Assembly: GCF_032854445.1 (NCBI RefSeq)
Contig: NC_088295.1
Span: 70,956,028-71,020,027, forward strand
DNA length: 64,000 bases
Origin: Liolophura sinensis
Taxonomy: Eukaryota > Mollusca > Polyplacophora > Chitonida > Chitonidae
Direction of reading: 5' to 3'
The notes beneath the pieces are model-generated. The model saw only the letters and a program-made list of their open reading frames with translations. It made no database searches and was not told the origin of the DNA. Below, piece by piece: positions 26,695 through 64,000 of this stretch (position 1 is its first letter; each line of letters starts with the position of its first letter). Both the position numbers and the translations under genes were made by a program.

Positions 26695-26840
26695 ATGACG
26701 TTCTCTACTGGACTGAGCTGGTTACACAGGTTCAGCCTTTTCACCTTTGCCCTGTGTATTTTGGGTTGTCCCATGGACCATTTCTCCCAGGAATCACCAA
26801 AAGATGTAAGCCCCATCCCCACTGTGTTCCAGACTAGCAG
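26695..26840 (+). CDS. Exon 1 of the giant gene: signal peptide
   Basis: The ATG at 26695 opens 48 codons plus two bases (AG|gtaaat). The peptide has a short N-region ([12 protein letters not shown]), a hydrophobic core ([13 protein letters not shown]) and a polar region after it, typical of a secretory signal. Its last residues, VFQTSR, match the module-junction pattern seen three more times downstream (IFRTDR, LFETDK, VFMTHK, each followed by LP). The phase-2 end fits the exon at 28322 exactly. This motif match identifies the exon although it is too short to stand out as an open frame. Confidence 0.82.
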
Positions 26841-29800
26841 GTAAATATTGTTGACACATTCTGCATTGGTTTGTCCAACTTTTAGTTGTGGATTAATTAG
26901 AAATGTGTACTACTATACCGCTTTGATAAATGGTATGGAATTAACACTTTATAGCAACAGTGAGTACATGCATTTTACGAGCGGACATATTGCTCGATGA
27001 AGCATTTGGTACTGAAACTACTGAATGAAACTTTTTCTTAACTTTGTGCACAATCTCTCGTTTTATAGCCATAAGTATATGCGTGCTAGGCTACAGGTAC
27101 AAGAAAAGCTTCAGTATGATTGCAAACAGCAGTAAAAGTATATGCACTATTCCATAATCGGGTGAACACAGCACTGTATGTTCGTCTTGACCTAAGGCAT
27201 GCTTGCTCACATAAGGCTATACCAAAGGGCAAAATTACAAGTTCGCGTTGACATATTCATGTTTGCTGAGTAAGAAAAACGATACCACTTTCACCAACCA
27301 ATCCTTTGGTTGGTGAAAGTGGTATCCAGATAATCCTCCTCTGGAGAACAACATATTGATCAGATTGTTTACAGGACATACATGTAGACTCAGTCTGTTG
27401 TGCTCACCAGTTACTCACTCTGTTGTGCTCACCAGTTTCTCACTCTGTTGTGCTCATCAGTTGTGCTGTCTGGTTATCTCCTCATGCATTCATGATCTCA
27501 ACCATTTCTCAACACAGCATGTATAAACAAATCGCCCTGCAGGCAGAAAGGGTGCATTCAACTTATGGATATGGCATAGTGACTGCTTGAGATTGAACCC
27601 ATCAAGACCATCACCTTGCGATGGTGCTTGTACTTTAATCCGCGCTTAATGGTGCTACCAGTTGGTAAACGGGCTTTGTATGTATTTCCCCTTAGCATGA
27701 TAGATACGTGTTACCGATGAAGTTTAATACAAACCAGACTGAACTAGAATTGTCGTCTTGGTGGAAAGATCATCATAGAAGATATTAAAGAGCCATATAA
27801 TTACAAATAGGAGAATTCATGGAAATTTGATTTAATTTCCATTTGATTTAGTTTCGGTGTTCATTATGAAAATTTGTTTGAAAACACTGAGGGTCATTGC
27901 AGGATTTTCATAAGGTTAATTCAAACCTGCATAAAAATAAGACGTTTTTGAAGACTGATATTTGTAGAACCCGAACATCCAGTGGATGACTTGAACGTGC
28001 CAGAAGTAATGTAATCTTTTAAATCAGCATGGTTGATCAATGGCAACAACATTTAAATTTCTCAGTTACCACTTCCAAACAACCTTTCAAGCATGATTGT
28101 TGTTAGGGTTGTTGTTTTGAAAATTGTTGCTTTTTGTAACTATGGAGATTTACTTTGTATTGATGGCGGGTATGTATTCGGATCTGGATTAAACAGGAAA
28201 AAGCACTAATATTTTTACTGGAGCAAGCAGGTCTGTAATATGGATTGTCTGTGCACGCCTGTGTCAATCCAGGATTTGACCAAATTTCGTAGGTATATGT
28301 TCTTTTTTTGTCACATTCCAGGCTTCCTCACGATAACTCTACGAATGGCATTGACTTCCGGTACATGGCATCTGTTGGGAACGGCCATTTAGCAACAGTT
28401 GTCTACAGCGACACTATTTACGTGAATGGACTGTACAATGGTGTATTGGGTGAGTAGGCCTACAGTAGAACCAGCTCATGCAACATTTGCGTTTAACAAC
28501 CGTTTTCATTTAATTACAAATAGAAAACAGATTTGAATCACCAAGACCTATCTTACACGTGGTTAACACACATATATATACATAAACCAGAATGCCGTGA
28601 AGTGCAAGCTCCAGTTCCAGCGTCAGATTTTCTGTATTGTGTGCACATATTTTCAGGATGGAGTCACCGTGCACGAATCCCTTCCACGCAGGCAATCCGT
28701 ATCCAGGTGGCAGGTAAACAGTGCAATACGACCAGAGAATACAGCTTGGACGTCGCCAGAGGTAAAAACTTGATTGTTTCAGTACTAAAACTTACCAAAT
28801 CTTTTTTGGTACCATGTACATCGTAGTGATACGCGGAGTTTGATTGGGCGAGCATGCATGTGCACAAGTTGCTGTTAACATACATGTATAATAATCATAT
28901 GTAACACTCATTGGGTATATCTGAACAACAATGAAAACGTAGTTTAGTGTGTTGTCAATGATTATGCATGGTATAGTCTATAGCCTATATAGATATTATT
29001 AGTAGACCTATGCACAGTATCGCTGGTAAATTCCATGTAAGCTACTGTTTTGAATCCGCAATAGATTCTGACTGTAGTGCCGTAATGTGATCCAGCTCTC
29101 ACTGGCATGCCTATGACATTCCATAGTGGGGAGGTTGTCCGGAATCTGGTGATGTATAATGCTTTCTCCAAGACTTTGGTTATTTCCTTTGTCCATTAAC
29201 CTGTGGGAAAGCTGTTATATACTTAATCAGTGAAACTATCGTGAAAATTGTAAGCTTAAAATGCATGTATTTTAAAAAAAAATCTACTTGTAGGTGTTTT
29301 TGAGGAAGTGTTAGCTGTAGACGGTATGGGGGGTCGGGTAGTCCAGCGGACGTACGCTCATCAGCGCTTTACACGCCTCCTGATCACAGAGGTTATGGTG
29401 GACAGACAATCAACCACGGGTCAGCCCTTCGTCATAGAGCTGCGTAACTACCCTGGCAAAGAGAGTACCGACATTAAGTTCTCGGAACAAGTCGATTTCG
29501 TCAACAACATCTGGTAAAGAGAATCGCATGCTTGTTATTTAGAATTACCGATGTGGAAAACTTCCAAAGGTCTATAAAGAAGTGGTATATTGTGCTTGTA
29601 TGTTTGGTAAATCTCTCAGTTTAAGTGTTTGTGTAAAGGATGTATAGTAATTCCTGCTATTCATCTACCAAGAAGATGAGTATAGTGGAAAAGCATAGAT
29701 ACTTCGCCAAATACACTCAGCATATTGTATATTTGACGGGCCCTGGAAATGACCTATGTAATTTTGTCGAAAACTGAAACTTCATGTATGCGACTTCTCA

Positions 29801-32415
29801 GTTTTTGGGAGTATATATATGCTGTTACACTGTGCTAAATCCCGTTGTTAAAACACCGTTTTTGGTATTAACCTACAGGCCTTCCTACCAGCAGAATGGG
29901 ACGACGCTGGAGGCTGAGCTGAACATGACCACCGCTAGCGGAATCGGTTCGCAGTCACCAGATGATAACGAAGGCGTACTACAGACTGTTAATATGCTTT
30001 CTACAAAACTCCCCAACTCCCTCACCTTAGACTCACATCAACAGAAGGGACGGTGGATTTTCTTTACCTCAATTGACCTGAATTACACCTCGGCGAAAAC
30101 AGAGTTTCAGAATGGGTTGGATATTTTATCAAATGCGCCTGACTACTTGTACCAGAGTCATATAAAAGCTTGGGAATCCAGGTGGAACGGAGGGAGAATA
30201 GAGGTTTCCGGAAACCTTCAACTTCAAAAGCTAATTTATGGATCGTTTTATTATCTGCTCAGTTCTCTTCCATCCATGGAATCAAATCTTCCCGCCAACC
30301 AATTCTATGGTCTCAGCCCTGGCGGTCTGTCGAACGGAGCTAATGCCACAGACTATCAGGGTCACGTGTTCTGGGACATGGAGACATGGATGTATCCCAC
30401 AATGCTTATGTTCCACCCCAAACTGGCCAAGGAGATGCTGTCGTACAGAAATAACGGTATGGAATTTGCCTATGAACGGGCTCGGGACGGTGGTTATGCG
30501 GGACTGCGCTTTCCTTGGCAGAGTGCGCTTACTGGAGCAGAGTTGACAACAGTCTGTATTCCGTGCCGTGACAATGAACAGCATATCACGGGTGATATTG
30601 GATTTGCAGCAAGACAGTATCTGACAGCAACTCGGGACACAGACTGGCTAAAATCAGAACAAGGATATCAACTTATCAGAGATATCGCCTTTTTTTGGGC
30701 CACCAGGGCAACCTATAGTGCGGACAAAGATGCCTATGACATCGATGGTAATTAAACTGTGTACATTTACTTTTTCTGATCAAACCATTGTTAGTGTGAA
30801 GTTCTGCAGCAACTTGCATATGGTCCTTTTTTCAGAGCATAGTTTCCTCCCATCATACATATTACCTGTCCACAATTTCTGGGGCTCAGCTTCATAATAG
30901 TTTTTAATTCCGTTTAACCTGCATGGAACTAGGGGCTTAATATGCATTGTGTTCAGGAAAATAAGGATGCTTAGATTGACAGTTACAATTAAAGAGCAAT
31001 TGAGGTTCATGTGTTTAATTAGCAACACCTTAGAAATTAGCATGCATGGTACAAAGTTTGAGTACTGATTAAATTTGCGCACCTATACATGTATACAGAT
31101 CATTCCTTGTGTTTTTCCGACATCATTGAAAACTGTGGAATATTTCCTGTTATGTGACTTCGTTCAAATTTCTTATTCTATATACATTTAGTTTGGCTCG
31201 TCGGTGGTCTGCGTCAAACGTTGTTTTGGAAATTGTTCTTGAAATTTGTGAACTGAACATCCATTAATGCTTTTTATTTAACTCCGTTCTTTCCACGGCC
31301 ATGCATGGAGATGCCACCTATGACGAGTGAGCTCGGAGTTGAAAACTGACCATTGTCAATTATAGAATATTCAACCATGACTGAAGAAATCAAGTGATTT
31401 TACATCACCTATTTACGTTTGTTAATTGGTTTGTAAATGTCAACACTGTTGTCGCTGGTTTCATACATTTTGGTATACGGTCTTAATTTTGTGTCCAAAA
31501 ATGAAATATCTCACTCATTATGAAAACATCTGTATATTTTCCTCTAGAGCAAAGTATATAGCCGCCTTGGTAACAACAAACACGTACTCTACAGCTCTCA
31601 TACGCTAAGGCCATTTGGCGAGACTTACATTCTTCGACGACCGCTGGTCTTCCACCAGTGTGGCATGCAAGTGTACGCGAACAGTATAAACACCGTCGTA
31701 TATAATTCTTGAGTATGGCGTTGAACATCAAATCATTTAACCAACACTCAAAACCCACATGCAATGAACAGACCTGTCCGTAAAACTGGTTGTCCTCTGC
31801 AGATGGTATCTAACTTAAACGCGAATACTTCCAAAAGAAAAAAAACGTGTGAATTTCCACAAATAGTGTATATGTTAAACATAAATTTATACTTCTTGAA
31901 GATACCACCAACATCTAGAGTAAAATACATTTGTCCAAAAATTTATGGCGAATAATAGCCGCCAAATACAAATGCTTTCCATAAATAAAAGTTTCTGAAA
32001 GGACAATACATGTATAGTTTCACCCAAAGACATCTCACCTCTGATTTGCAGCTTGTGTCCATGCCCATGCTGTAAAAACTGTAATCCTGTAACAGTATGA
32101 ATTAGTGATAGAAAGTACGAAAATGACCACAAGTCCTAGAGATCACGAGTTTTTTGTCCGTATTTGAAGTTTGATTTTATAAGGCGAACTTTGGAGAGAA
32201 GAGATTTGATAATATATACTTGATAAACTTTTCGTTTCAGATAATTTAAAAATAAAATTGTTGTAAATATTAAGTTGTCAAATATCGGAAACACTATACC
32301 AGGCCCTATTATATTCCTGTTATAAAATTTGTAAACTTAACTATTACGACAGCACGGTAAGTTTTGAAGACACGTAAAACAAATGTATCGTTTATAGTAT
32401 ACGTATATGTAGGTG

Positions 32416-32473
<58 letters not shown>

Positions 32474-35400
32474 GTATACATACATACATGTATGTATAGG
32501 ACTAGATAGACTTGCAAGGCATGATTTTGTCTGTGCCTGCAGCTGTGCGTGTATTTTTATCTTTTAAGGTGTAATGCCACCAGATGAGTATGCACAGTCT
32601 GTGAACAATTCAGTGTACACAAACGTCCTCGCCAAGAAGAGCATCCTGTTTGCTAGATATGCCGCTTGTCTCAATGACCTGGATTACTCCAAAGAAATTA
32701 ACGATTCCCTCATTTCAAAAGCTGAAAACATCTTCATCCCATTTAACCAGTCATCCCGGTATCACCCAGAGTTTGAAGGGTACGAGAGTTATGACAATGG
32801 TAAGTCGCACCCTCAATATTTTTAATCCTGCTCAGCGATAGTGAAGGTTAGCGAGGAGAATGTTCACTTTCGGTGAATTCATTTAGCCTATATGGCGTAT
32901 ACATTATATTAAAGTTAAAAATGTCAACAGATTAAGTAAGTCTCAGTGGAAAGACCAACATGTTCTTACTCTATCCAAATCTACCTTTAATTGTGTATAT
33001 GTGAAGGCTTCCAATCTGAAATCTTGAAGCCTATATTGTTTTTGCTCAAACATTTAAAAACATATATTTGGACAGTGCTTTTTGACGTTTTTGTAGAAAA
33101 CTACAAATGGCAACTTCTTGAAATTTGGCAGCAAGATTATCTTTCAGGGTTCAGAAGTTTGTTCCTCTAGGTTCCGGGGTGTGGTGGCCATATTGTATTT
33201 CGCGAAAAACCTTTAAATATATTTCTCTCAAGGGCCACTGGGTGGATTTTTTTGAAGTTCTGTCGGGTGCAACTAGGCCTAATATCATAGTTTAAAGAAG
33301 ACTTTAAAATCCGTTAAAAACCGTAGAAGCTCGCCATTGGTCGAATATAGGGCACAGTAGACGTAGGCAAACAGAAAGTCTTGAAGAAGAAATAGATCTA
33401 AATGTTTGTAAAAGACGAAGTCTTACATGGAATCATCCGTTCCACATATTCTGGTGCTTTTTGTTGTTTTTTTTTTTTTAGATGCTCCCTTGCGAAAGTA
33501 ACCATGTTCTGTTGTAGTGGCGCGGGCTGTTTAATCTGGGGGACCCTCAGCAGTTGCAGACTGCGCATTTGTCCCAGTAAATCACGGCATGTTGTAGGTA
33601 CACATAAAGTGAAACAGGCAGACGTGATCCTGCTGGGGTATCCCCTTATGTACGACATGGATATAGATGTCCGTCGCAACGATCTGGAGAAGTATGAGAA
33701 AGTGACAGATGAGGGTGGCCCAGCCATGACATGGGGAATGTTCGCTATCGGCTGGCTAGAGCTGGGCGATGAACAGAGAGCTGCTGGGCTGTTCAACAAG
33801 TCACACTCACCGTACACCAGGGAACCTTTCAAAGTATTGACCTTACATACATATGTAGCAACTTTTTGTGCAATTTCAATGGACCAAGCTACGATTTTAA
33901 AAGATCGAAGTCATAGTACTTCTGTCAATTTGCATATATCTGCGCATAACAAGATAATGGGCGATGAAATTTAAATCTGATCTTGTGATTTTATTGTGAT
34001 GGTGTTGAACATTTCCTTTATATTAAATGCATAGTATGGGACATTTTTAAACAAAGCATGAAGTAATGTGTATAAAACCCGGTAGTTCATACGATGATCA
34101 CATGTCAGATGGGGAACTACATGTAGATGTGCAACGTGTCTATATTGAATGGTATTGTCATAGCCTATTGGTTTCACTTGTATTTGTGTTTTGTTTTTTT
34201 TTGTTTTTTATAATTGGAAAATGAAGTTCAGATCAACATAAGGCACATGTATGTATCCTTTCAGATCTGGACGGAAGATCATTATGGTCATGGAGCAGTG
34301 AACTTCATCACAGGGATGGGAGGATTTTTGCAAGCAGTATTTTTTGGTTATGGTGGTGTGCGGTTACAAGTCGAGCAGCTCACTTTTGACCCAAGACTTC
34401 CTCCAGGAACAGATGGCATGAAGCTTATAGATGTGGATTATCTGGGATCCAGATTTGATGTCATTATAAAGGCTGAAAGAGTTCAGATTAATGTGACAGA
34501 GGCCCCCCTGGGGTCAGAGTTGATCCTGACTGTTAGCTCAGATGGCTCACAGTTCCTCCTGACAAAAGGTACATGTACATCAGCATGTTTGTTTTATTAA
34601 CTGTTGCTTATTGTCAGCATTAAAAACGGAAAGGCAGTACTTCTGTATTAATACATCTAAATTCATTACTATCAAGCTTTTATTATGATAACAGGCATGG
34701 GAATAATCAGTGTATTGAATATGGATGTCAGGCCTTCTTATTTCGAACACTAATGAAACAGAAAACTTTCTATTACCATTACAAAATGCCTTAACTACCC
34801 TAATTGTTCTAATTTTTTGGACACCTGGTCTGCTCTTTTTCACCAATATAAATGTAATTGTAGGAGGAATATTTAGTTTCTTCTTTTCACATGGTCAGTA
34901 CATGTAATGACAAACATATTCATATCTTTACTCTCCCCAAAACTGAGAGAGATATGTAATTCTTTGCTTTCAGCACTATTTACATCTGTCCGAAAAATTA
35001 GAGGAAGTAGGGTAATATAAACTTGCAGTGTCAGGCAGTTTTTTTGGTAAGATGGCTGTGACAAGGCAATCCTGTTGAGGTTTGAACCAACAAGTTTTTG
35101 GTTTCATGATCAGGATTCTACCACTGGACGAACTTGAAATTCCCTCCAGACTGGAGGTACATGTAAATATAGCATTTAGATTCCACCCTGTTACATGGGA
35201 TTGTCAATAAGAATGAATATCATAATGATGTTTTAATACCTCCTTTCTTAGGTAGACTGATTGACATGGCCAGAGAAGCATTTTCCTTGAAAGGATCAGA
35301 AGAGACAGACTGTCCTGTGCCTGAAGGTGACATTTAGAACATTGCCCTCATGCCAGTCAGTGCTGAAAGTAGCAAATCCGTACCATGAGGTTAACGTTCT

Positions 35401-38400
35401 TATGACAGTGCTAACAATTTGCAGACGCTCTACAGTTTCCTTGTGCTGCATGATCAGTAGCACCAATTTTAGTTCAATTTTACAAATAACTCCAGCCCTT
35501 TATTTTTCATCATCTAACAAACCTAAAGTTAAATGTCAGAATTATTCAATATTGCCATGTTTTAGAATTCAGTTTGTCCAATATTACCCTGTATTTGCAG
35601 GAAGCTCATGTTCCCCTGGTGTCCCATGGTCAGATTTGTCACCCACGCCCAGTGTGAGTCCCAGCTCTGGGGTTCTTACTAACCCAGTCAACTACATAGT
35701 TCTCACCCACACACAAGGGAAAGGCTGTCATACAATGCTGGACTGTAAATATCAGGCCAGCAACTATTCGGTAAGTCTGCATTCAGACAAAAAAACATTT
35801 ACATCTTGCTAACCGAAATTTTTTTTCTAGATTTACTTGAAGGAATCACCATTTGAATCCTAATTTACCAGGACTTGAGATGAAATTGTGACAGGGATGG
35901 TCTTCAGCATGTTTCATCAGTAGGGGATCACTGTAAATATACCAGTCTTTGATGTGTCCTGCTATAAGGGGACACTTATGTCATGTAATAGAAATAGTGT
36001 TTTAAATGATCTAAAACCTGAAGTACAAAACAACCGAAAAAACTAAAAGTCTCCAATATATATATATACACCCTGTTCACCTGTAAAGAAGAATTTTCTG
36101 GAGAAGAATTATTTGTTACTTTGTGAAGAGACAGTGTCTTTACTACACCAGTGTCAAAGATTTCAGAATACTTGTAGAGTAACAGGTCATAATCTTCAGC
36201 CTTTGATACAACTATTTCACAGTTCTGGATCAGGTCATGTCATAAGCTTATATAGCTTCATTGTGTATGGAAAATGCCTGACAGTAATATAGTATAGACA
36301 GTAATCAGATAAAAGAATGGCTTATAGTGCAGGTAATGTAAGTGCATTGTTGATGTGTTGTTGGTTTCAGAATGACTACAACTACCTGGTTGGGGAGAAT
36401 GGTATAGCATATGAAGGTGTGGGCAGCAGGTTTACCAGCGGAGTGATGACCCAGTTGACTAACAGAGCTATTACTATAGCTGTCATGGGAGATTTCAAAT
36501 GTACTGCCCCTAACACTAAAGCATTTGCAGCAGTTAAGCGCATTGCCAAATGCCTGTTAGAAAGGTGGGTGCCAAATATTACTCAAGAAGTTTTATTTTG
36601 TCTGTGATGTTTTTGTGCCTGTGTTATCATCAATCATTTTATCTTATACAAATTCTACCTACTTCTGCCTACTTAAAAAAAAATTGTTATTTTTAATCCA
36701 GGTTGCGTCAATAAATAAGGTCACATTAAAGTTATGATGTTCAGGGCATGTAATAATAATTATAGAAACATACTAGTGCTTTGCAGAGTGTTTGCATGAC
36801 ACGCCTGAGAGCCTGGTTGAGGTATATTATGAAATTTGCATTCAAACTTGTCACTCTGATTCCTTACATTTGCCTGATTTATGAGTCATTAGTCCGCATG
36901 TTGTTTCTTTCATCATTTAAGTGTTATTGATAAAACTGTTTATCTTATTCCAGAAACATATATTGAATATTAATAATGACCATGGTTCATCTATATTATA
37001 ATATCCTCATTTCTTTTGTAATAGTATATACAAACCATGTTTAACACCAGCAGTTTTATTTTTTGGATCTACATGTACTTTTGTCTTTTTTTTGTGTTAA
37101 AAAAAATATATTTTTATATATTATTTTGGAACTGTGCAATATTCCAGTGGGAAATTGTCTAGGAATTACACTGTGCTGACACTAGAACAAGCTACTGACA
37201 GTGGATCCTCAACTGAGAGGGATGATGCTATGTTCTGTGTTATCAAACAGTGGAAACACTGGGTATGTAATTGGTATTATATTCTACAATCGAAAATTAC
37301 AGTTTTAAAAATTCTTAGTTTAACAAATAAAATATTTTGGCTACATTGTTAAGGTTCTTTGCTTTTACTATAACTGCATTTGTAGAGAGAATAAAACACT
37401 TGACTTTATATCCAATGTGACAGTTAACACATTGTTTCAAATACAAATATTCTGAAATACAGATATTAATGGGAAGAGTGTTTATTAGTGCCCCATCGGT
37501 CTGCCTGTTGGTCGGTCATTTCGCTATCTACACAACATGTTTATATTGGTATTGCGATTTTTACAGATATTCACATGGTACAGGTATCTGCATTGTTGAT
37601 AACTGAAAGCTTAGCATGACTTTATCATGTTTAGATACACAAGTTTGAAACTTACATGCATCTGGTTTTTTTAAAGTGAACAATGTTTCCAATATTCTTT
37701 TTATTACCTAATCACTGTAAGTACTTTAATGGGTGAATTGTGCCCAAGCTCAGCATGATATATGGACATCCATTTTAGATGCAATATGTTTGGAATGTTT
37801 GTTTCCTCAGCAGTCATTTCAGTCGTCAGGAGAGCTGAGGTACCCACGCTGTGATAGGCTGTGTGACAGAGAGACAGACTATACTTTTCAATCAGACGGG
37901 TTTACAGACCTGAGTGAGGAGCCTCATATATTCCGCACAGATAGGTGCGTTTACAACTAGTGTCTTGAACACTTACAACTAAACAGTAAAAAAATGATTC
38001 AAATCAAGAAAGTAAATATTGGCACAGTGTTTCAGCATTATGTTTTTCCACACAATTACGGCTCTGCAAAGCTCTGAACTACTAGTTTCGTTATTGTTTT
38101 GTAGCAAAGCAGCAGTTTTTTCAAAAAGAGCCTCAAGTAAAAATTCTATACTTCTCTGTTTTCAAGACTCCCCATGGTGGCGGGCAGCCAGTCAGTTGAC
38201 ACCAGATACATGCCCTCTGTTGGAAACGGGCATATAGCCACGGTGTTGTACAGCTCCTCTGTCTATATGAATGGATTGTTCAATGGATATAAAGGTATTG
38301 TGTACAGAAATCGATTGATTGGTTAACGATTAATGGCATGCTCAGGTGTATTTGACTTGTAAGGCAGCTGTCAGTGTCATTGGTGGAGGAAACAGGATTG

Positions 38401-53400: not shown

Positions 53401-56400
53401 TAAACTTTATCACAGGCATGGGAGGCTTCCTGCAGACTGTCTTCTTTGGTTACGGAGGCGCAAGGATACACGTAGAACATTTGTCCTTTGACCCCCGCGT
53501 GCCGCCAGGAAACACTGCTTTACGGTTTGTTGGAGTGGATTATCTGGAGAACTCTTTTGATATGGAAATCACCCATGATAGAGTGCGGATTCTGCCCACG
53601 AAAACCTCCCCCGACTACCCACTAGTACTCAGAATGACGATGTCTAGGGCAGAGTACAAGTTCATCAAAGGTAGGATGAAAGGATTATGTCATCTCTGTT
53701 TATGTAGTTTGAGGGTATAAACTTGCAAGGAACATTTAGCTTAAGCCTTACTTTTTGTTTTTTTTTATTAAATATGATTAAGATCATACAGCTGAGGCTT
53801 GAACTTAAATTTGTACTTGATTTTTTGGTCACAGACAAAGAGCTGTTGTTACCGAGGAAAGCATTTACCTTAAGGACATCTGTGGTGACAGACTGCCCTG
53901 TACCTGAAGGTAAGACCTCTACACTTGCATCTTGTAAACTGGTAGTGCATACTTTTCTCTTGTACATTCGTTTATATGTATTCTATTCTAGTCTATTGTT
54001 TGGTAGCGTTGATTTTGTTTATTTATTTTATCAATGTTTTACGCCATACTCAAGAATATTTCACTGATACGACGGCAGTCAGCATTATGGTGGGCGGAAA
54101 ATCGCTGTGTTTGCAAACAATACAGTAAACCATGCTTGTACATTGTGTGACATTAAGAAATGAAAATGTCCAAATTGTTCCCTTCCCCTCCCGTGGTGGT
54201 ATCTTCAGCTGTTGATATTTGAAATTGCCTGCATTACAATTCCAGGTAGTTCATGTCCCCTCGTTATAGAGCGTTCTTCTTGGGACACTGACCCTCCCAC
54301 CTGGTCAGCCTTAGCTCGCTCACACCCAGCCAAATACGTCATTCTTCATCACACCACCATGGCCAGGTGTTTTAACTACGGGGACTGTAAACAGCAAGCC
54401 AGACTGACAGAGGTCAGAAACTACAAAGCTTGTCTAACATTGGCATTAAATTATTACTACCTAGAGTTCAGACATATATGCTAAATAGCAAGGAATTTGA
54501 TTATATTTATATAATTTGTAATGTTGGTGAAATGCAGTTCTGTCCACATTGATGAACCTGAAACAGTCACTAACATGTAATTATTCTGTGTCATTATTTA
54601 GAGCTTATTACTATCAAGAGTTCAGTATGTGAAGAAATCATAGAATTATAACCTGCATGTTGCAGAACATTTTCTTACATGCCCATGTCTCTTCGTTGTT
54701 GTGACCTACACTGTTTTGTTTATGCATTTACCTATGTACAGATGTACCACAAGGCCTCTATCCCCCAAGGCTTAGGACTGTCAGATGTGGGGTACAGTTT
54801 TCTGGTCGGAGAAGATGGCAGTGTATTTGAGGGAAGGGGTTGGGATGCATCTCTGCCAGACATACTAGGGGACAAAAAGAATTCCATTGGTTTGTTGTGT
54901 TTAGCATACAGAACACAAAGATTACATAATTAGGAGTATAATTTCACAAAAAATGGAGACTTTTAATATTTTTCCTGTGGTAAATATGAACTTAACAGTT
55001 TTCCAAACAAGTTCAAATTTTTTTTGAAAGAAGGTTCCCATATTGAAAGATTAGTTCCTAGCACATTAACATATACTGCAGCCTACTGTGATGTTGAGAT
55101 CCTTTCTACATGACAATTCTTAAAGACTGTTTAATTCATTGTTCATTGCTGTGCTATGATTATTTCTTTGTTGTCTGTCACATTCAAGGCTGTATATTTA
55201 TTCCGACTTTCACATGGAACACAGTGGAGGAAAGCAGCATTTGTATTACATACAAGTACTTGTACAAGGTGTGAAGATATATGTCACACATGATTCATGC
55301 ATCTAAAGTTAGCCATCTCCGATTTCTCCTGGCAGGGATTGGTGCACTTGGGGACTTCTCCTGTGGTGAGCCCAGTGAGAAGTTTCTGGAGGCCATACAG
55401 AGACTGATCAAGTGTGGGGTGGAGAGGTGAGGCTAAAGTGCATCTAAACAATCTAGGCTATGTTTTCTGTATGTGTACATTTCCTACAATCCTGGGAATT
55501 AAGCTTTTAGAGGCATTCTGGCAATTTTCATGTGATTTTTGAATTTTTGCAAGTTGTGAAAGCAGGCCATTGGTTAAATATAGGATATCACAGAAAGATT
55601 TGATTTTTAAAACAAATTCTAAACGGCTCAGTATGTTTTGCTCTCCTTATTTCAAAACTGATCTCACTGTTTTCCTACATCATACTGTGTTGTTGCAAAT
55701 TGTGTTAAAAGTGCCAAAAAAAAATGACCTTGAAAATTTGTCACATTCTACCTGATTATGTTTAAACATTTAGCTGTGAATTGTGAGTTCCTATTGGCCA
55801 TCAAGGTTAAATGCTGGAATTCAGTTCAGTTGTTGCAGGTACACAGGTAGATTAGAAAGAGTTTAAATCCCAGTGATGGGTGATAGTGGAAATCGTGGTA
55901 CAAGGACTGAATTGTTTTGTCAAAGCTGAAAGTGATCGTGTCTCCTTGCAAATAAAACCAGAGATATGGGACTAACACATTCAATATTTCAGTACATGGA
56001 GACAAAACTGATTTAACTGGAAATTATGTAATTGCTACAGGAAAACACAGAAGCACAGAAATGCTGTTTTCTAATTGCTGTAATTTATACTTTGTCATGG
56101 TCAAGAATTTCAAGAAATTTTTCTTCCTCAAATCTTCATTTTGCAGGAAGAAGATTCATCCACATTATCGGGTGATTGGTTTTGATCAGATTCACCATAA
56201 TGATGTTCCGGCTGATCGGCTCCTTTGTGAGATCCAATCTTGGCCACAGTGGGTGAGTATCATGAGTGAAACAAAAGTCTGTGTATAAATGTTCTTACTG
56301 TATGTTTCATATTATGGGCTTATTATGTCTAATGTTACAAATACTGATTCTGTCAGTGGAGGAGAACATGGAAATCTCAGTTTTTCAGTCGCCACATAGA

Positions 56401-59400
56401 TCTGGCTACAGGAATGAAAGTCAGTGTGGCCATAAAACTACATTCAGATAATGAATAATTTGTAACATTTAATGCATATGTATGATGTATTTCTTATTCT
56501 CTTACTGCCTTTTCTTGTTTCAATCTCATCCTGTAACAGCTTTTTCCTGTTTCAGCCTGCAGCCTGTCTCTTCCTGATACAGCTTCATCCTGCAACAGCT
56601 AGCCTCTACCTGTTACAGCCTTCTTCCTGTTACAGCCTTCTTCCTGTTACAGCCTTCTTCCATTTGGCTTTATGTGGTGTCTGAGCCTCACTCCATCTAT
56701 TTACATCTTAATCCTTCTCCAGCTAACTCTAGAATCTACAAATAAATGATACTTGACATTTTACAGCATAATTTTGACACGGGAAAAATGATGGCAGGGC
56801 TAGACTGTGACAGTCCGTGTGATCCTACAGCACCCAGGACACTAGAGGGGGATGTCAAAGATGAGAGTCCCCACCCTACTGTTTTCATGACTCACAAGTG
56901 GGTGAAACATTTAGGGTTCACTTCGGTTTGTACAGTTAGTACAGTACAGTTTGAGAGAATTCCAGCCTATTGATGCAGAGATCTTGAAATGGCCAGGTCT
57001 TCCTTTTTTATGATGCGTCTGTGTTTGAACTGCATACATTACTATTTTGAGAATGTCACAGAACGATTTGTAACTTTCAAGCAAAGAAAGGTGGGGTGAA
57101 GGAAGTACATCATTAACACATAAACACATATGGACCAGCTATTCAATTTGGTATGTTCTCACATGATTAAACAACAGTGTGTCCTTAATATGAGGAGTAA
57201 TATGATGATAATGAGGTGTATATCTAATAATAATAATGCAATTATAGGTTAAAATACATGTAGATTGGAAAAACTGTTTGCTGGATATCGTACTTTAGCT
57301 GTGATTCTTCGCCTTCAGGTTACCAATGAAGAAAGGCAGTGAGGAGGTTGACTTTCGTTACATGGCATCTGTGGGTAACGGTCACCTAGCTACGACAGTC
57401 TACAGTGACACTGTCTATGTGAACGGCCTTTACAATGGACCCACAGGTACCTCCTCCACATAAAAGCAAGCTTTTGTTCCGTTTATTGTGAAATTTTTGA
57501 AAATAAATTTGAGATTTGTTTTTCTTTAAGTATATGGGTAAGGCGAGTATGTCATATCTATTGCCAGAAAAGTCATCCTTTTTCTCTTGGAATATACACT
57601 TGCAAGGGGATTATGCTGTCATATTGAATGGAAAACAACCTGACTGCTTGAAGCAATGCTGTTCATGTAGAATGAGTGTGCATTCAAACTTTAGCTGGCA
57701 CCTTACAGGCACAAACATGTATATCTGGGTGGCATAAGCAGGATGATGCTCCTGAGAGTTGATTCTTGTTTTATAGAATAAGTATGCAATTGTCACTCAT
57801 TGGTTATCAGCTGCTGTTAGAGTACATGTGTAAGACAATTTGTAAACACTGCAATTAGATAACTTTGGTACATCTGACTGGTAGTGACAAGTTTCTTCCC
57901 AGGCTGGACACACAGAGCTCGCATCCCATCTTACAATGCAATACGCTTACACGTCCAAGGGCAGCCAAGTGAAGCAGTCAAGAGGACATATGCTTTGGAT
58001 GTTGAAAGTGGTAGGTGGGCAAATAATCAAAACATAAACATGGATTTATGGATGTTGTTTCCAGTGTTGTTTAGAGAACAGCAAAATAGTGTACATTACT
58101 GCAACTGGAATTTGTCAGCATTTTTGCATGTTTATGCTCTGCCAAGTGTGGCATACAAATGGCATTTGCAGGACATGTGCATAAACTGAAGAAATTGTGC
58201 AATTTGTTAAGCACTGAATTTGACCAGTGCACTGGATACAGTTTGGGCTCTAAGATGATTTTGGTGAGTATGAATGAATTAAATCTGGTTGTACATAAAA
58301 ATACTGTAGATTGATCCAATCAGATCCAATTCTGATTGGAAAGTACACTAGACAGATATTCAAATCCTTAAGAATTGCTGTATGGTGTTTTTGTTTTCTT
58401 TAAGTCTGTCATTGTAGTTAAATTTGTCATTTTTGAGTTTTTAGTTAAATGATATGGATATTTTCTGCCATCACAAAAATGTGAATAATGATAGTTTGCT
58501 GATCAGAGAGAATTTGGATTATCCACATGCATTTATGCAGATGTTTCTGCCTATTTCCAGCCGTGTTTGAAGAGAGTATTATCTCCCCTTATGTGACCGT
58601 CAAACAGAGAACGTATGCACATCAGTATTATAACAGGCTGTTACTGACTGAGATCCTTGTAACAAGGCAGGGTGATACTGACATGGCTGTCGTGCTTACA
58701 GTGAAAAACAACAGGGGAAATGACAGTATAGATATCAGCTTTAAGCAGCCTGAAAATTACCAACGACCCGAAATGTGAGTTATGTGCAGCTCTATTGAAC
58801 ATATTTTAGGTGATGCTGGTCGGAAAATATAAAGTACTGTCCAGATGGAAACTGTCTTACTGATGATAAGAAGACCGTTACTTTTTCTGGGGTGCATTTT
58901 GAGTTCTTTCCCTTTTTATATGGTGTTTTCTAATGGCTAATATACATTAATGTACAGCTGTATTCATGGATCGTGGTGTTAAGGTACATCATTTCCTGTT
59001 ATTTTGTTACATTGCTGCTTATATTCTTTTCTTTATTTGATACCTGATGTCGCAGTTAAGAATGTATGTGACTTTCATCAGGTTTTAAATATTAGCTGAG
59101 AAGACTGGAGTGCAAAGAGTAAATTACAGCTCTTTTCCAGGTACTTGACAAACCACCTACCTTAATTAAAATTAAAGCCAAATCAGACAAGCTAATGTGA
59201 TCAGTCATATCGTTAAGACTTGTCCAGCATGTGTATAACCGCCTCATCGTAGGAGTTTAGGTCCATCATTTTTGTGAGTTTCACACATTGTTTCTAACGG
59301 TTATTGTGGTTCATTGGTTACAGCTGTCCTGATGGCTGTTCTCTGATGGAAGGTCAGACCCTGATTCCAGAGACAGAAACCAGCTCCCTACACCATATCA

Positions 59401-62400
59401 CAGTTGTCTGGAAGAACCTGCCTGCTAAGCTTCGCGTGGAGCCTGGTGTGAGTGAGGCACGCTGGCTGTTTGCCATGTCAGCTGACCAGAACAGGATTGC
59501 TGCAGAACAGACATTTGACGATGCACTGCGTCAGTGGACAGCTAACCATGACTACCTGTACAACATGCACGTTAAGGCCTGGGAGGAGAAGTGGAACAAA
59601 GGACGAATTGAAGTTGATGACAATCCACGTCTGTCCAAGCTCATTTATGGAAGTTTCTACTACATGTTATCGTTCTTGCCTTCCACAGACACATTTGTTC
59701 CAAATAACCAGTTCTATGGTCTCAGTCCAGGCGGTCTGGCAAATGGTGCCAACTGGACAGACTATCAGGGACACGTGTTCTGGGACATGGAGACCTGGAT
59801 GTATCCCACAATGCTCATGTTCCACCCAGAACTTGCCAAGGAGATGCTGTCTTATCGTATCTACAGTATGCCTCCCTCCCAGAAGCGTGCCGAGAGTGGA
59901 GGGTATTCAGGGCTGCGCTATCCATGGGAAGCTGCTTTCACCGGAGGGGAAGTAACTCCTGATATCTGTGTACCCTGTCGTGAAAACCAGCAGCACATTA
60001 CTGGTGATATAGCTTTTGCTGCCAGGCAATATCTAACTGCTACCCGAGACATACACTGGCTTAAATCAGAGAAAGGCTATGAGTTCATCAAAGGAATGGC
60101 AGAATTCTGGAAAACTCGGCCAGAATGGAATGAGAAGACCGGTTACTATGATATAAATGGTAGGTGCATTCTTGTACATGCACACACTAGTATTTGTATT
60201 TGTACTTAAAAGGAGCTATAGGTTTATCCCTTGTCTGTCTGTCAGTCCATCACAACATTTTGGACTTTTTTGTCCATTTGAGATGAAATTGTGTACGTTT
60301 TTGTCCTGTTGTGCATTTACAGACTTTTTCAAAAGAGTTCGTTAATCTGAAGTAAAACTTTATACGTGGTTTCACGGAGGCAAGTTAGAGATCAAGCTTG
60401 AACTTTGGGGTATTTTCATTCGTTTTCACAAATTCATAGCTGTTTTTGTTCTGTTGCGGTCTTAAACATTATTCTGACTGCTCAAACTGGTGCAGGACAT
60501 TGTAAAAGAATTACTTTCAAAATGCTTGCTTTCCTGATTTTTTAAGGGTCTACTTCAGTGGGCTGTCTTCATTTAAAGCAGTGCATGCAATAGCAGCAGT
60601 GGAATTTGTGAATAACACCATATTGATGTACCAGATCAGCTGCATCCATCCTTTCTATCAAGAATGACAAATACCTTTGTCAGCATATAACCTCTAAATC
60701 ATAAACACTAAGCTCAGCTTTCTCTACACCTGATGTGCTTTGTAGGAGTTATGCCCCCTGATGAGCATCAACTCAGCATCAACAACTCTGTTTACACCAA
60801 CATTGGTGCCAAGCTCAGTATTCACTTTGCTCGCTATGCTGCATGTTTGGTTGGGATGAAAGCCACAGAAGAAATCAGTGAGGACTGGTTGGAAGTTGCC
60901 AGAAAGATCTTCATTCCCTTTGATGATGAACGACAATATCACCCAGAATTCCAGGGCTATGGAAATGTGACGGGTTAGTAATTTATTGTTCTGTATGATT
61001 GTAAGCAGTCATTGAATATTGGGTACTTGATAGGCACTAATTCACATTGATTGTTTATCAGTGGCATTGTGAGTAGACATGTTAACCTGCATGCAGTGTT
61101 GTGTATTTATTGTTGTGGTCTTTTGCTCATAAATCTAAGGGTAATTATAATAACAATTTTATGAAATGACATTGTAAGCTACTCAAGCCTGGAAGGAATG
61201 CTTGCAATCTGTTATCATAGTAATCATTATATAAACTGTTCTTGTTGATTAAATGTGTGAATGGACTTTTTGTATGCATAACAAGATCTGAGTTTTTTGT
61301 AGGTGAAAAGAAAATTGTGAAACAGGCAGACGTCATCTTGGCTGGTTTCCCTCAGATGTGGCCCATGCCTGCCACTGTGCGGCAGAATGACCTTGAGGTC
61401 TACGAGATGGTTACCCACCCAGGAGGACCAGCCATGACATGGGGGATGTTTGCCATTGGTTGGCTGGAGCTGGGAAATGAGGAGAAAGCTGCAGACACAT
61501 TTCACAGGAGTTACTCTTTGTACACACGAGAACCATTCAAGGTGACCAATCATAAATGTGTTTCTATTATGCTGGAATTAAAAGGAACTCTTGAAATGCT
61601 AACTCTTATTAAATTGGGTCTATCTGCCCATCCATCTTCCTTGCCTTGATTAAATATTGTCCACTTTTTTTTCATGTATGTTAATTTTGTGTAGGCTCAA
61701 ATCATTTTGGAAAAAGACATCACTCATCCATGCATCACTTTTGCATATTTAGAATGGGATATAAATACTTTCAAGTTGCTTGTTTATATTGTCTTAATTT
61801 TGTTTTATAAATATGACATGAAATTCGTTGTTTTTACTATGGGTCGTTAGATCTGGACAGAGGCCCGATCTGGTATTGGTGCTGTTAACTTCATCACAGG
61901 AATGGGTGGATTCCTGCAGGCGGTATTTTTCGGTTATGGTGGAGCGCGATTACATGTAGAAAAATTGGACTTTGATCCGCGGCTGGTACCAGGGACGTCA
62001 GCAATGCGATTTAAGGGACTAAACTACCTGGGGAACTCTCTGGATGTGGAAATAAAACAGTACTCAGTTCAGGTGATTTGTAGACTTGAGTCCAGAAAAC
62101 ACCCTCTGATGCTGGAAAGTTTGGAGTCAGGTGTGCGTTATCATCTCAAACAAGGTAGGCCTAACTATAGTACAGATGTTCAGTCAACAGTTTAGTTGTT
62201 CTGTCAAATCATTGTGCAAGTAGAGCAGGAAGGAAACATTAGCATGTCAAAGTGGAATCACTTGAACTAGATGTGACTGTATGAGGATAAGAAATATCAT
62301 ACAAACTGTTGTAAAGTACCTGCCACTGGATAGTATTACCACAAAAAGTACATGTACATGTGTCAACTCTGGTTGTAGACTCTACATCTTTCTTGTTGCA

Positions 62401-63668
62401 TGTTTATATTTATTGCATTTACACCTGTTGTTAACATTTGTGTATTCATAACATTTGTGCCAGTCAGTAAAGTCTGTCAGTTTATTGCAGATTAAACTGT
62501 ATGACTTGTTACATTCAAGAGGATGTGTTAAAAACTTTCTACATGTATGTTTCAGACAAAGAATTAACATTTGGAAGAGAGCCTTTCACAGTTCGTGCTG
62601 TTGATGTCACTGATTGTCCACTGCCAGAAGGTATGTTTATACCATACGCTGTCGATCTTTTTGTGGTTATTTATCCATACAGCAATTTCCCAAAACACAA
62701 TTAGAGAATTAAATTACAAAATAGATGAAATGCCATGAAAAATTCTTGTTCTCCAGATGTTTCTAACAAATCCTTGTATAATGGCTATCTTCCAAATCCA
62801 ACATACATACTCATGTACTTACATCTCTCTGTACTGTAAGGTGGCTCTTGCCCTGAGATCATCTGGAGGAAGACCCCTACAATGGTTCCCAAGCCCAAGT
62901 ACAAGACAGTGGTTGTACGTCAGACAGGGGGTAACCGCTGCTTTGATCAGTCAGACTGTAAGAGTATTGTTGATCACAACCAGGTAGGACTTCTGATGGC
63001 ATACATGGAACTTTGGCACATCTGTGTGTAATATGTGTAGATATGTGATGTAGTACAAAGTTCTACCCCAGCTAAATGTTTCAGTTTCACACACCACAGA
63101 AAATACCTTGCGTTTTTAACCTTACTGTCGATGGCGAAGAAAAAAAATTCCTCATTCCGAATTTCATGGATTTGTCCTTGGCAGAAGGATGAGCTATGCA
63201 CAAAATTTAATCCAAATCCCTGCATAGCTTTTGCCATTAACTTGCTGACAGGCAAATTTGCTGACTCAGCAAAAAAAGTGCCCTCTTTTGGTAGTGGTAA
63301 TAAGCAAATGTGCATAATGTACACGAAGGGTTCAACTACATGTACCTGTGGGACATGAAAGTACGGGAATAATATAACCTACTACAGATGTGTCAAGAAT
63401 ATAGTTGGTGTTACTTTTTGTTGTTAATGATTTAAATGTGGTAAACAGTATTGTTTCAAAACATCCTGACTATGTACTATGGAGTTGTCAGACTTCATTT
63501 TTATGCCTTGTACTTGTGTCCAGATTGCTAACTTTTGCTGTCATTTTTGTGTTAGTTTAATTTGCTATTGTTCTCTCCAGACTTATGCAGGGTTTCACTT
63601 CTTGGTGGGGGATGATGGTAGGGTGTATGGAGGGGAGGGCTGGGACATTCCTACAGATGAAGCTTTGA
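26695..63668 (+). CDS. Giant secreted GH65 (PGGHG-like) + PGRP-like tandem-module gene, 3' end beyond window
   Basis: 49 exons in the window, all with AG...GT borders and joining in one frame (10,804 coding nt, about 3,600 residues). Exon 1 encodes a signal peptide; exons 2-13, 14-26, 27-39 and 40-49 are four tandem modules. Each module has an N-terminal sandwich, an alpha-barrel and a C-terminal part of a GH65 glucosidase (~720 aa, close to the 737 residues of human PGGHG), then a PGRP-like domain (~160 aa). Modules 1-3 end in a ~44-aa linker with C-x3-C. PGGHG removes glucose from glucosyl-galactosyl-hydroxylysine, and PGRPs bind bacterial peptidoglycan. No stop, ATG-signal exon or promoter-sized gap separates modules (junction introns 222, 385 and 421 bp), so I read one transcript rather than four genes. 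Function of the fusion is inferred. The gene continues past 64000. Confidence 0.87.
27281..27326. repeat. Perfect 20-bp inverted repeat, 6-bp loop
   Basis: gataccactttcaccaacca (27281-27300) is followed by six bases and its exact reverse complement (27307-27326). It lies in intron 1 of the giant gene. Confidence 0.95.
27394..27468. repeat. 25-bp tandem repeat, three copies
   Basis: Units start tctgttgtgctca at 27394, 27419 and 27444; the third decays at its end. Confidence 0.9.
28322..35326 (+). CDS. PGGHG-like: Module 1, GH65 PGGHG-like glucosidase domain
   Basis: Exons 28322-28449, 28657-28761, 29294-29513, 29879-30747, 32569-32799, 33598-33833, 34265-34568, 35252-35326. The N-terminal sandwich has [19 protein letters not shown] and GWSHRARIP. 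The barrel has [16 protein letters not shown] and [13 protein letters not shown], whose Asp (codon 30375) fits human PGGHG Asp301. MPPDEY (Glu codon 32586) fits the general acid Glu430, and EPFK-IWTE supplies the third carboxylate region (Glu574 by spacing). NNSVYTN and [13 protein letters not shown] are further family blocks. All active-site residues I can judge are present, so this domain is probably catalytic. Several N-x-S/T sites fit a secreted protein. Confidence 0.88.
31690..31738 (+). mobile_element. SINE tail fragment
   Basis: gtcgtatataattcttgagt then atggcgttgaacatcaaatc, a diverged SINE 3' end. Confidence 0.6.
32418..32500. repeat. TA microsatellite with TACATG-rich flank
   Basis: (TA)n to 32459, then TA repeats broken by tg, then tacatacatgtatgta. 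Confidence 0.95.
34780..34978. repeat. Interspersed repeat, copy 1 (intron of module 1)
   Basis: Blocks ttctaattttttggacacct, ggtctgctctttttcac, gaggaatatttagtttcttc and tctttgctttcagca recur in the same order at 41262-41452, in a different intron position of module 2. A shorter match lies near 6550. It is therefore a dispersed repeat, not intron homology. Confidence 0.65.
35601..37944 (+). CDS. Module 1, PGRP-like domain and Cys linker
   Basis: Exons 35601-35770, 36371-36564, 37148-37262, then linker exon 37811-37944. Family marks: a C-x5-C pair (CHTMLDC) after [18 protein letters not shown]...[25 protein letters not shown] and a final IKQWKHW. In amidase PGRPs the zinc is held by His (first of HHT), His (GHRQ) and Cys, with a catalytic Tyr. 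Here the first is Thr, GHRQ reads TLEQ, and the Cys is absent, so no hydrolysis is expected. The helix that normally precedes GYNFLVG is missing, and exon 36371-36564 lacks an intron present in modules 2 and 3. The linker contains YPRCDRLCD and ends HIFRTD before the next module. Confidence 0.8.
38167..43786 (+). CDS. PGGHG-like: Module 2, GH65 PGGHG-like domain, probably inactive
   Basis: Exons 38167-38294, 38916-39020, 39262-39478, 39859-40673, 41517-41741, 42286-42518, 43124-43433, 43712-43786. It aligns over its whole length with the other modules ([65 protein letters not shown]). The conserved [13 protein letters not shown] block reads [14 protein letters not shown], so the catalytic Asp is Tyr (codon 40304), and about seven residues are lost just before it. 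EPFK-IWTE becomes EPFK-VWQS. The PPDE glutamate remains. The frame is intact and the fold-level residues are kept, so it looks like a pseudoenzyme under selection rather than decay. Confidence 0.85.
38452..38512 (+). mobile_element. SINE tail fragment
   Basis: ttgtataagtggaatgttct, tgagtatgac and an aaataaaataaat end resemble the SINE 3' end. Confidence 0.5.
38790..38829. repeat. Perfect 18-bp inverted repeat, 4-bp loop
   Basis: tactaatgtttctgagtg (38790-38807), loop ggag, then its exact reverse complement (38812-38829), in an intron of module 2. Confidence 0.95.
39684..39805 (+). mobile_element. SINE 3' half
   Basis: tgggaaggtctgtcagcaac through ccaccataatgatggctgcc to gtgaaatattcttgaga, with the tail shortened. 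Confidence 0.85.
40774..40815. repeat. Short tandem repeat
   Basis: Units of ggagatggacatatata repeated about 2.5 times in an intron of module 2. Confidence 0.8.
41262..41452. repeat. Interspersed repeat, copy 2 (intron of module 2)
   Basis: Partner of the 34780-34978 repeat: ttctaatttttatgacacct, ggtctgctgtttttag, ggaatatttagtttct and tctttgctttcag in the same order. Confidence 0.65.
41810..42074 (-). mobile_element. Full-length tRNA-derived SINE (reference copy)
   Basis: Read on the minus strand it starts ggggcctccgtggctcagtt. It has a box A-like TGGCTCAGTTGG (42064-42053) and a box B-like GAGTTCAAGTCC (41996-41985), then a conserved body with gggtttcccccgggctgtgc, and ends in an (AAAT)n tail. 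These are the RNA polymerase III promoter boxes of a tRNA-derived SINE. It sits in an intron of module 2, opposite to the gene. Confidence 0.93.
44025..44135 (+). mobile_element. Degenerate SINE tail
   Basis: gttttcctccactggcactc, gaagtgaaaattcctgagta and ccagtcaaataaagataaat follow the SINE 3' order. Confidence 0.5.
44613..46809 (+). CDS. Module 2, PGRP-like domain and Cys linker
   Basis: Exons 44613-44776, 45371-45506, 45997-46087, 46329-46443, linker 46682-46809. This is the most PGRP-like of the four: [12 protein letters not shown], the C-x5-C pair [47 protein letters not shown] and a terminal SVHW. The catalytic Tyr of AYNF is kept. The first zinc His is Tyr (VIVYQTAG), the GHRQ His is Gly (GGRQ), and the third ligand Cys is absent, so it should bind rather than cut. 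The linker has KPKCDRKCE and ends LFETD. Confidence 0.86.
44990..45106 (-). mobile_element. SINE 3' part
   Basis: tttgattggtgttaactggg, gtactcaagaatatttcact and ggaggaaaccaggcagagcc. Confidence 0.75.
45230..45280. repeat. Palindromic TACATG array
   Basis: Repeated tacatgtac and tatacatgta words, self-complementary throughout. Confidence 0.8.
45690..45770 (-). mobile_element. SINE 3' fragment
   Basis: tttgattggtgttttacacc then ctcaagaatatttcactgat and agccaacattatgg. Confidence 0.8.
47195..53909 (+). CDS. PGGHG-like: Module 3, GH65 PGGHG-like glucosidase domain
   Basis: Exons 47195-47322, 47591-47698, 48447-48666, 49184-50013, 50412-50639, 50994-51229, 53367-53670, 53835-53909. It keeps [27 protein letters not shown], the segment from [16 protein letters not shown] to [13 protein letters not shown] (Asp codon 49638), [19 protein letters not shown] (Glu codon 50429), [20 protein letters not shown] and EPFK-IWTE. 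All three catalytic carboxylate positions are therefore present and the domain is probably active. The first barrel exon begins [12 protein letters not shown], more variable than the rest. A 143-bp patch around the Asp is almost identical in DNA to module 4. Confidence 0.9.
47865..48170. repeat. 46-bp minisatellite, about 6.7 units
   Basis: Units starting aaatattgagtatggcc occur at 47895, 47941, 47987, 48033, 48079 and 48125 (exact 46-bp period), with a truncated 30-bp unit at 47865. There is no unique sequence between units. It lies in an intron of module 3. Confidence 0.95.
51230..53366. other. 2.1-kb intron of module 3
   Basis: The longest intron after exon 2. No SINE consensus or other repeat is clear, and its short open frames have no recognisable similarity. 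Confidence 0.7.
54018..54104 (-). mobile_element. SINE 3' fragment
   Basis: tcaatgttttacgccatact, caagaatatttcactgatac and gtcagcattatggtgggcgg. Confidence 0.85.
54246..56897 (+). CDS. Module 3, PGRP-like domain and Cys linker
   Basis: Exons 54246-54412, 54742-54889, 55336-55426, 56147-56252, linker 56767-56897. It shows [20 protein letters not shown], the CFNYGDC pair, [38 protein letters not shown] and EIQSWPQW. It is the only PGRP domain here with the HHT histidine, and it also keeps the Tyr. The second zinc His is lost (GHRQ reads GFDQ) and the Cys ligand is absent, so amidase activity is unlikely. The linker carries GLDCDSPCD and ends VFMTH. Confidence 0.86.
56520..56665. repeat. 18-bp degenerate tandem repeat
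   Basis: Pyrimidine-rich units close to cctgttacagccttcttc; the last three are nearly perfect and the earlier ones drift. It lies in the intron before the module 3 linker exon. Confidence 0.85.
57319..62630 (+). CDS. PGGHG-like: Module 4, GH65 PGGHG-like glucosidase domain
   Basis: Exons 57319-57446, 57903-58010, 58561-58774, 59324-60159, 60746-60973, 61303-61541, 61851-62154, 62556-62630. It has [57 protein letters not shown] (Asp codon 59784), [19 protein letters not shown] (Glu codon 60763), [13 protein letters not shown] and EPFK-IWTE. The Asp-to-Glu spacing is 131 residues and the PPDE-to-EPFK Glu spacing is 146, against 129 and 144 between Asp301, Glu430 and Glu574 of human PGGHG. The domain is probably catalytic. 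The first barrel exon starts with CPDGC, giving a small local cysteine pair. Confidence 0.9.
62841..63668 (+). CDS. Module 4, PGRP-like domain (partial, runs off the window)
   Basis: Exons 62841-62983 and 63581-63668. It shows [25 protein letters not shown], the CFDQSDC pair and [17 protein letters not shown]. The HHT histidine is Arg (VRQT) and the catalytic Tyr is Phe (GFHF). Like module 1 it lacks the helix before the FLVG strand. The donor at 63669 (A|gtgagt) shows that the gene goes on; the second half of the domain and any later modules are outside the window. Confidence 0.82.
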
Positions 63669-64000
63669 GTGAGTATCTCAGATGTTCCAGCCACATGTAC
63701 ATGTATATGTAACCATAGCTAAGTTTGACCTCTTCGCTTGTTTGTTATTACCAAGTAATACTTATGGCTATATTCAAGTAAGAGTTCATTGACCAAACAA
63801 TTGACAGAATAAGATTTTTGACAAGTTATGCATTGTGGAATTTGGCCACTGCCAAGTTTCTATTCATTTTACTGCTGTAACATACATTCACCAACATGAA
63901 ATAACAGATGTGGTAATGAGAAAATTCTGAAATAAAACAGTCTTGTGTTTTGAGTGCCGATAATAAGGGATAATCCATCTAAATAAGGCCTCCGCTCCAT

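Follow-up and report, generated by a model that had tools for sequence, protein, structure and literature searches.

A predicted 65-exon gene with five GH65-PGRP modules

The stretch of DNA analysed here, which we refer to as the window, covers 64,000 nucleotides of a chiton genome (C1:70956028-71020027) and contains, on its forward strand, what is very probably a single gene in which GH65 and PGRP domains alternate. In our spliced model, 65 exons form an open frame of 4,657 residues that runs from an ATG at 26695 to a TAG at 81140 (such positions are window-based, counted from the first letter of the window and continued past its end). The whole gene occupies C1:70982722-71037169 (~54.4 kb); the window cuts it, and it extends 17 kb beyond the window end. 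A first-pass annotation had proposed 49 exons joining in frame from 26695 to 63668, arranged in four modules with at least four GH65 units. Our rebuilt model arrives at the same exon count (12, 13, 13 and 11 in successive modules) and the same end points. The tandem fusion stands; the number of modules rises to five once the downstream DNA is included, as the same contig continues past the window with one more GH65-PGRP module and a terminal exon, giving five of each domain. The predicted protein consists of a signal-peptide-like start, five repeats of GH65, PGRP and a Cys linker, a Pro/Thr stalk, and a hydrophobic end that resembles a GPI signal.

We pieced module 1 together manually, working from the sequence and from the start, end and exon number given by the first-pass annotation, with no exon list; modules 2 to 5 were found with a purpose-made spliced protein-to-DNA aligner applied to the region plus 40 kb downstream. 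A few exon edges were picked by eye among alternatives, and every exon of the final model was then checked. Each of the 64 introns has GT-AG ends, which by itself is no evidence, as the aligner admitted little else. Reading frames are intact throughout the five modules. The phases at exon ends (2,1,1,2,1,1,0,1,1,0,1,2,0) are identical across modules 2 to 5, and those of module 1 match them except that the intron separating exons 11 and 12 is missing. Every module has an exon of exactly 75 nt, and another exon measures 304 nt in four of the five and 310 nt in module 2. We infer that these exons are spliced into one mRNA.

Exon 1 (26695..26840) carries the ATG, the signal-peptide-like start and the beginning of the GH65 N-terminal region, and ends at a phase 2 donor, GTAAAT. 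The module 1 GH65 domain continues over 28322..35326 (exons 28322-28449, 28657-28761, 29294-29513, 29879-30747, 32569-32799, 33598-33833, 34265-34568 and 35252-35326), and the PGRP domain follows at 35601..37262 (exons 35601-35770, 36371-36564 and 37148-37262), ending with KQWKHW at a phase-0 donor. In module 2, the GH65 domain, predicted to be dead, lies at 38167..43786 (exons 38167-38294, 38916-39020, 39262-39478, 39859-40673, 41517-41741, 42286-42518, 43124-43433 and 43712-43786) and the PGRP domain at 44613..46443 (exons 44613-44776, 45371-45506, 45997-46087 and 46329-46443). Module 3 is made up of a GH65 domain at 47195..53909 (exons 47195-47322, 47591-47698, 48447-48666, 49184-50013, 50412-50639, 50994-51229, 53367-53670 and 53835-53909) and a PGRP domain at 54246..56252 (exons 54246-54412, 54742-54889, 55336-55426 and 56147-56252). 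The module 4 GH65 domain spans 57319..62630 (exons 57319-57446, 57903-58010, 58561-58774, 59324-60159, 60746-60973, 61303-61541, 61851-62154 and 62556-62630). Its PGRP partner occupies 62841..63668 within the window (exons 62841-62983 and 63581-63668) and is completed past it by exons 65282-65372 and 65981-66101; the window ends inside the intervening intron (63669..64000 for the window part). The module 5 domains, GH65 at 68898-77355 and PGRP at 78056-79934, both lie beyond the window. All of these features are on the forward strand.

Elsewhere in the window, a forward-strand frame at 14808-15611 matches SH3BP5 over 46 residues (Pfam, 1.3e-10) and probably belongs to a neighbouring gene. Dispersed SINE-like repeats with a shared core occur at 22215-22342, 24176-24303, 24464-24591, 41814-41941, 44992-45064, 45690-45762 and 54018-54145, four of these seven listed copies sitting in introns of the fusion gene, and a 46-bp tandem repeat is present in an intron of module 3 (47849-48216). 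Shortly after the stop codon, tandem repeats with AATAAA-like units begin (81167-82300), the first hexamer being at 81287.

Both domains are recognisable in all five modules

Pfam searches of the spliced modules place both domains above the curated cut-offs in five of five, which is the check that the first-pass annotation had suggested and which confirms the tandem GH65/PGRP fusion that it had observed. Glyco_hydro_65m was matched with E-values of 3e-50, 2.8e-40, 9.4e-46, 4.8e-48 and 3.2e-53 in modules 1 to 5, and Amidase_2 with 4.2e-10, 2.6e-8, 8.1e-15, 1.4e-6 and 1.9e-12, that of module 4 narrowly over the cut-off (29.1 vs 26 bits). Glyco_hydro_65C exceeds its cut-off in four modules (E 2.3e-6 in module 1) and falls under it in module 2 (19.9 vs 22 bits). 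Pfam searches of 10 raw stop-to-stop frames returned only GH65 fragments and chance matches, and a whole-genome Amidase_2 profile search detected none of this gene's PGRP domains among the 9 matches listed, because each domain is split over three or four exons.

A search of the PDB covered modules 2, 3 and 5. The GH65 domain of module 3 resembles PGGHG/ATHL1 over residues 4-686 of 697, with a best E-value of 2.9e-138 to entries 9sd4-9sd8, which, judging from residue positions, we take to be human PGGHG. The module 2 GH65 domain is similar over residues 2-643 of 690 (E 2e-93 to 9sd5), and part of that of module 5 also matches PGGHG structures. The module 3 PGRP domain is matched by animal PGRPs (5xz4 and 4z8i) over residues 9-178 of 178, with an E-value of 3.9e-32 to bumblebee PGRP-SA (5xz4). 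The linker of module 5 (58 residues) had no match in the PDB.

Module boundaries argue for one gene rather than five

The first-pass annotation had read the locus as one gene, and the open frame, the exon phases and the exons at the module boundaries support this. The exon that starts each of modules 2 to 5 follows a phase-0 acceptor and encodes, in a single open exon, a two-cysteine linker and GH65 N-terminal sequence. These exons lie at 37811..37944 (module 1 to 2; no Met, hydropathy maximum -0.26), 46682..46809 (module 2 to 3; preceding intron of 238 bp, one Met, maximum 0.01), 56767..56897 (module 3 to 4; three Met, maximum 0.42) and, beyond the window, 67238-67374 (module 4 to 5), all on the forward strand. 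None contains a hydrophobic stretch, their 11-residue hydropathy maxima ranging from -0.26 to 0.42 versus 2.47 in exon 1, which has an in-frame stop 7 codons upstream of its ATG. The terminal exon after module 5 (from 80966 to the stop at 81140-81142) opens with the same linker and continues into a Pro/Thr stretch and a hydrophobic end. Scored with a profile built on the four internal linkers, which themselves rank first by construction, the terminal exon reaches 35.5; of 4,520 open sites that follow an AG on either strand of 104 kb, no other scores above 7.0. Because the terminal exon shares it, the linker belongs to the region that follows a PGRP domain, and the internal linkers are joined to the next GH65. 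The presence of linker and GH65 together in every boundary exon is strong support for a single gene.

Could the locus instead hold five separate two-domain GH65-PGRP genes in tandem, joined only on paper? Per kilobase, the boundary introns contain about three times as many signal-peptide-like ATG stretches with a phase-0 GT at their end (8 in 2,436 bp, or 3.28/kb) as the remaining 60 introns do (37 in 38,038 bp, or 0.97/kb); four of the eight fall in the module 3-4 intron, and an internal start within boundary introns is possible. Poly(A)-type hexamers, too, are somewhat denser in boundary introns (2.05/kb) than elsewhere (1.58/kb). Retention of a boundary intron would give a stop after 29, 5, 11 or 1 residues, and the boundary exons of modules 3 and 4 offer an in-frame Met. 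Only one of the eight stretches has a donor that is near consensus by eye, and the 238-bp module 2-3 intron has no such stretch. Against five genes, all five PGRP-ending exons carry a donor in place of a stop at the same phase-0 position, the exons that open modules 2 to 5 have no hydrophobic stretch and carry a linker homologous to that of the terminal exon, the boundary introns are short (238 to 1,136 bp), a signal-peptide-like start is found only in the first exon of module 1, and a stop with a tail only after module 5. We give the five-gene arrangement little credence and hold the single-gene structure, predicted from these features, with high confidence. An assembly error joining separate loci is scarcely credible. 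Although the accessible text of the assembly paper (PMC11068029) tabulates 1,110 gaps, it describes a HiFi assembly, there is not one N in the 104 kb examined, and the low protein identity between modules (39 to 55%) makes collapse or false tandem joining unlikely.

At the termini, the composition of the signal-peptide-like start agrees with the earlier description of the protein as secreted. Free secretion is a different matter: the C-terminus reads ...SSVSTPLFTRTHTLVILTALITGLLL before the stop, has an 11-residue hydropathy of 2.58 and is GPI-like as judged by composition, and the protein may be tethered via this tail. By raw count, the chain contains 44 N-glycosylation sequons.

Four GH65 domains keep the catalytic carboxylates

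The essential carboxylates of human PGGHG are D301, E430 and E574 (PMC10077716, itself citing another paper). In our alignments, with residue numbers mapped by counting and chain positions one higher, the same Asp and two Glu are kept in modules 1, 3, 4 and 5, four of the five. Module 2 retains E430 and has Tyr in place of D301 and Ser in place of E574. The general-base Glu, which replaces the phosphate site of phosphorylases, lies in a WTE motif in modules 1, 3, 4 and 5 and is replaced in the WQS of module 2. Gln is present in deposited PGGHG chains at the E574 position in 9sd5 and at both E430 and E574 in 9sd6, as expected of catalytic mutants, which agrees with a catalytic role for these residues. 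We predict that the GH65 domain of module 2 is a dead enzyme. The first-pass annotation had treated the GH65 units alike as trimming enzymes, a view that does not extend to module 2, where two of three carboxylates are lost.

A bacterial alpha-1,2-glucosidase and kojibiose hydrolase, FjGH65A (7fe3), offers a second comparison: its general acid is E472 and its general base E616, and W391/E392 matter for kojibiose (residues as given in the accessible text of PMC8626586). Mapped by counting, the acid, the base and the Trp-Glu pair align with module 5. The recognition pair is Trp-Glu in modules 2 to 5 and Trp-Gln in module 1. FjGH65A is a bacterial single enzyme without a PGRP domain and is more distant than PGGHG (6e-68 with module 3).

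The zinc site is missing from all five PGRP domains

The zinc ligands of known amidase PGRPs are His, His and Cys. At these positions modules 1 to 5 carry T/L/E, Y/G/T, H/F/V, R/L/C and Y/E/C, thus keeping 0, 0, 1, 1 and 1 of the three. As a yardstick we used the other PGRP exons of the same genome (15 pieces from 8 loci). Among these standalone pieces, HHT is present in all six N-terminal pieces; of the six that reach the C-terminal ligands, five have the cysteine (CPG) and five the zinc His (four GHR and one GHQ), the sixth carrying GRR and SPG. With at most one of three zinc ligands per domain, no PGRP domain of the fusion gene should be an amidase, which bears out the earlier description of these domains as catalytically dead.

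Other parts of the fold have fared differently. The paired cysteines are kept in all five domains, as in animal PGRPs. The GAH motif is absent from all five (module 2 has LAH nearby), and GRGW is lost in modules 1 and 4. Peptidoglycan binding by these domains cannot be assumed given these losses, and we regard it as doubtful.

The modules probably derive from old tandem duplications

Protein identity among modules is 39 to 55%, and dS could not be computed in eight of the ten module pairs, which indicates that the duplications are old. In the remaining two pairs, dN/dS is 0.12 and 0.18, values that are rough because dS is near 3.5.

A search of the genome (609,464,459 bases in 632 contigs) with one module and with a GH65 profile found two further GH65 loci, both on C6. 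At C6:19244198-19252583 (+; L025-L027) lies a canonical-looking single-domain GH65 of PGGHG type with its catalytic motifs kept; it has several exons where the modules have one exon of 815-869 nt. The other, at C6 ~2,450,588-2,466,065 (-; L022-L024), is GH65-like and has lost catalytic motifs (GHVTGDQERW, PPGK), which adds another predicted dead GH65 to this genome besides that of module 2. Spliced searches with the five PGRP domains found no recognisable PGRP 3' of either gene, in 2.44-2.452 Mb (12 kb) and 19.252-19.26 Mb (8 kb): scores reached at most 122, as they did in four control stretches, compared with at least 219 for true cross-module matches.

In a GH65 tree, support of 100/100 sets the five modules apart from both C6 genes (one of which is only half complete); modules 3 and 4 group together (89/89), and module 2 forms a long branch. 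The PGRP tree is unresolved, so that co-duplication of both domains rests on exon structure and not on congruent trees. The simplest account is one ancestral GH65-PGRP module with fused exons, which was then duplicated in tandem.

Discussion

We propose a single origin of the GH65-PGRP module, from a GH65 of PGGHG type and a PGRP, followed long ago by tandem duplication. The chain would enter the secretory pathway and perhaps be retained at the membrane by a GPI anchor. Its four intact GH65 units would act as alpha-1,2-glucosidases of the PGGHG/kojibiose-hydrolase type, and the five PGRP folds without a zinc site would bind or space, holding the enzymes on a glycan-rich surface. The result would be a multivalent enzyme strip. 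Taking together one 65-exon gene, five modules, probable GPI-like anchoring, four alpha-1,2-glucosidases and binding or spacing PGRP folds, we lean modestly towards this joint reading. The sequence itself gives the gene model, the domain identities and the state of the catalytic residues; secretion, anchoring, enzyme activity, binding by the PGRP folds and the target are deduced from these. Our confidence in the mechanism is much lower than in the single-gene structure. Two details speak against this reading: in module 1 the recognition pair carries Gln at the Glu position, and module 2 is predicted to be dead.

The target may plausibly be either bacterial alpha-1,2-glucosides or, as for PGGHG, the animal's own Glc-Gal-hydroxylysine, and the roles in immunity, digestion or mucus that the first-pass annotation had raised would be conjectural. 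The link to PGRP slightly favours a bacterial target, and the loss of several PGRP motifs weakens that argument. If the target is the animal's own, the protein could be a matrix-processing enzyme, its GH65 units removing glucose from Glc-Gal-hydroxylysine in collagen-like proteins and its PGRP folds serving as spacers or protein binders with no bacterial link. PGGHG is the closest solved relative (the 2.9e-138 match with module 3) and, according to the accessible text of PMC8626586, is only one-fifth as active on kojibiose as on the collagen glycan; in addition, zinc ligands and further motifs are missing from the PGRP domains. Such a function leaves unexplained why each GH65 has a PGRP domain behind it and why this pairing survived the old duplications, and the single-domain GH65 gene with catalytic motifs at C6:19.25 Mb could do the same task. 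We therefore regard it as unlikely, if still a serious contender.

More doubtful is a membrane-tethered antibacterial or digestive strip, in which the five amidase-dead PGRP domains would dock on bacterial walls while the four GH65 units strip alpha-1,2-glucose (kojibiosyl) decorations, for example from lipoteichoic acid. We know of no earlier report of an effector of this kind. Enterococcal lipoteichoic acid carries kojibiose as a substituent, as stated in the accessible text of PMC7692742. Finally, a non-enzymatic multivalent lectin or scaffold, whose GH65 folds bind without cutting, would fit module 2, which lacks two of the three catalytic residues with its frame still intact, but is improbable given that the other four modules retain the three carboxylates together with the motifs around them.

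Returning to the tethered enzyme strip that we favour, both of its domains are known, and their fusion and five-fold tandem arrangement are unreported in the literature searched. A full-text search, with most subscription papers outside its scope, found no GH65-PGRP fusion, and the eukaryote sequence search covered this genome only; annotated models with the same architecture may exist. PGGHG is a single-domain protein (738-residue chain in 9sd4), whereas the chiton gene has five copies alternating with PGRP, a secretory-looking start and a GPI-like tail. Multi-domain PGRPs, with several PGRP domains per protein, likewise carry more than one such domain per chain, but to our knowledge never with an interposed glycoside hydrolase. 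In contrast to animal PGRPs such as 5xz4 and 4z8i, all five chiton domains are without the zinc site and GAH, and are fused to GH65.

If the model is right, a collagen-type glucosidase has been joined in an animal to a fold used for innate-immune recognition, and the pair has been multiplied to five copies within a single surface protein. This would provide a testable route for the reuse of PGRP folds that have lost amidase activity, and would point to a possible extracellular role for a GH65 family that is best known from collagen breakdown. The fusion would also be a marker that can be traced through chiton and other mollusc genomes.
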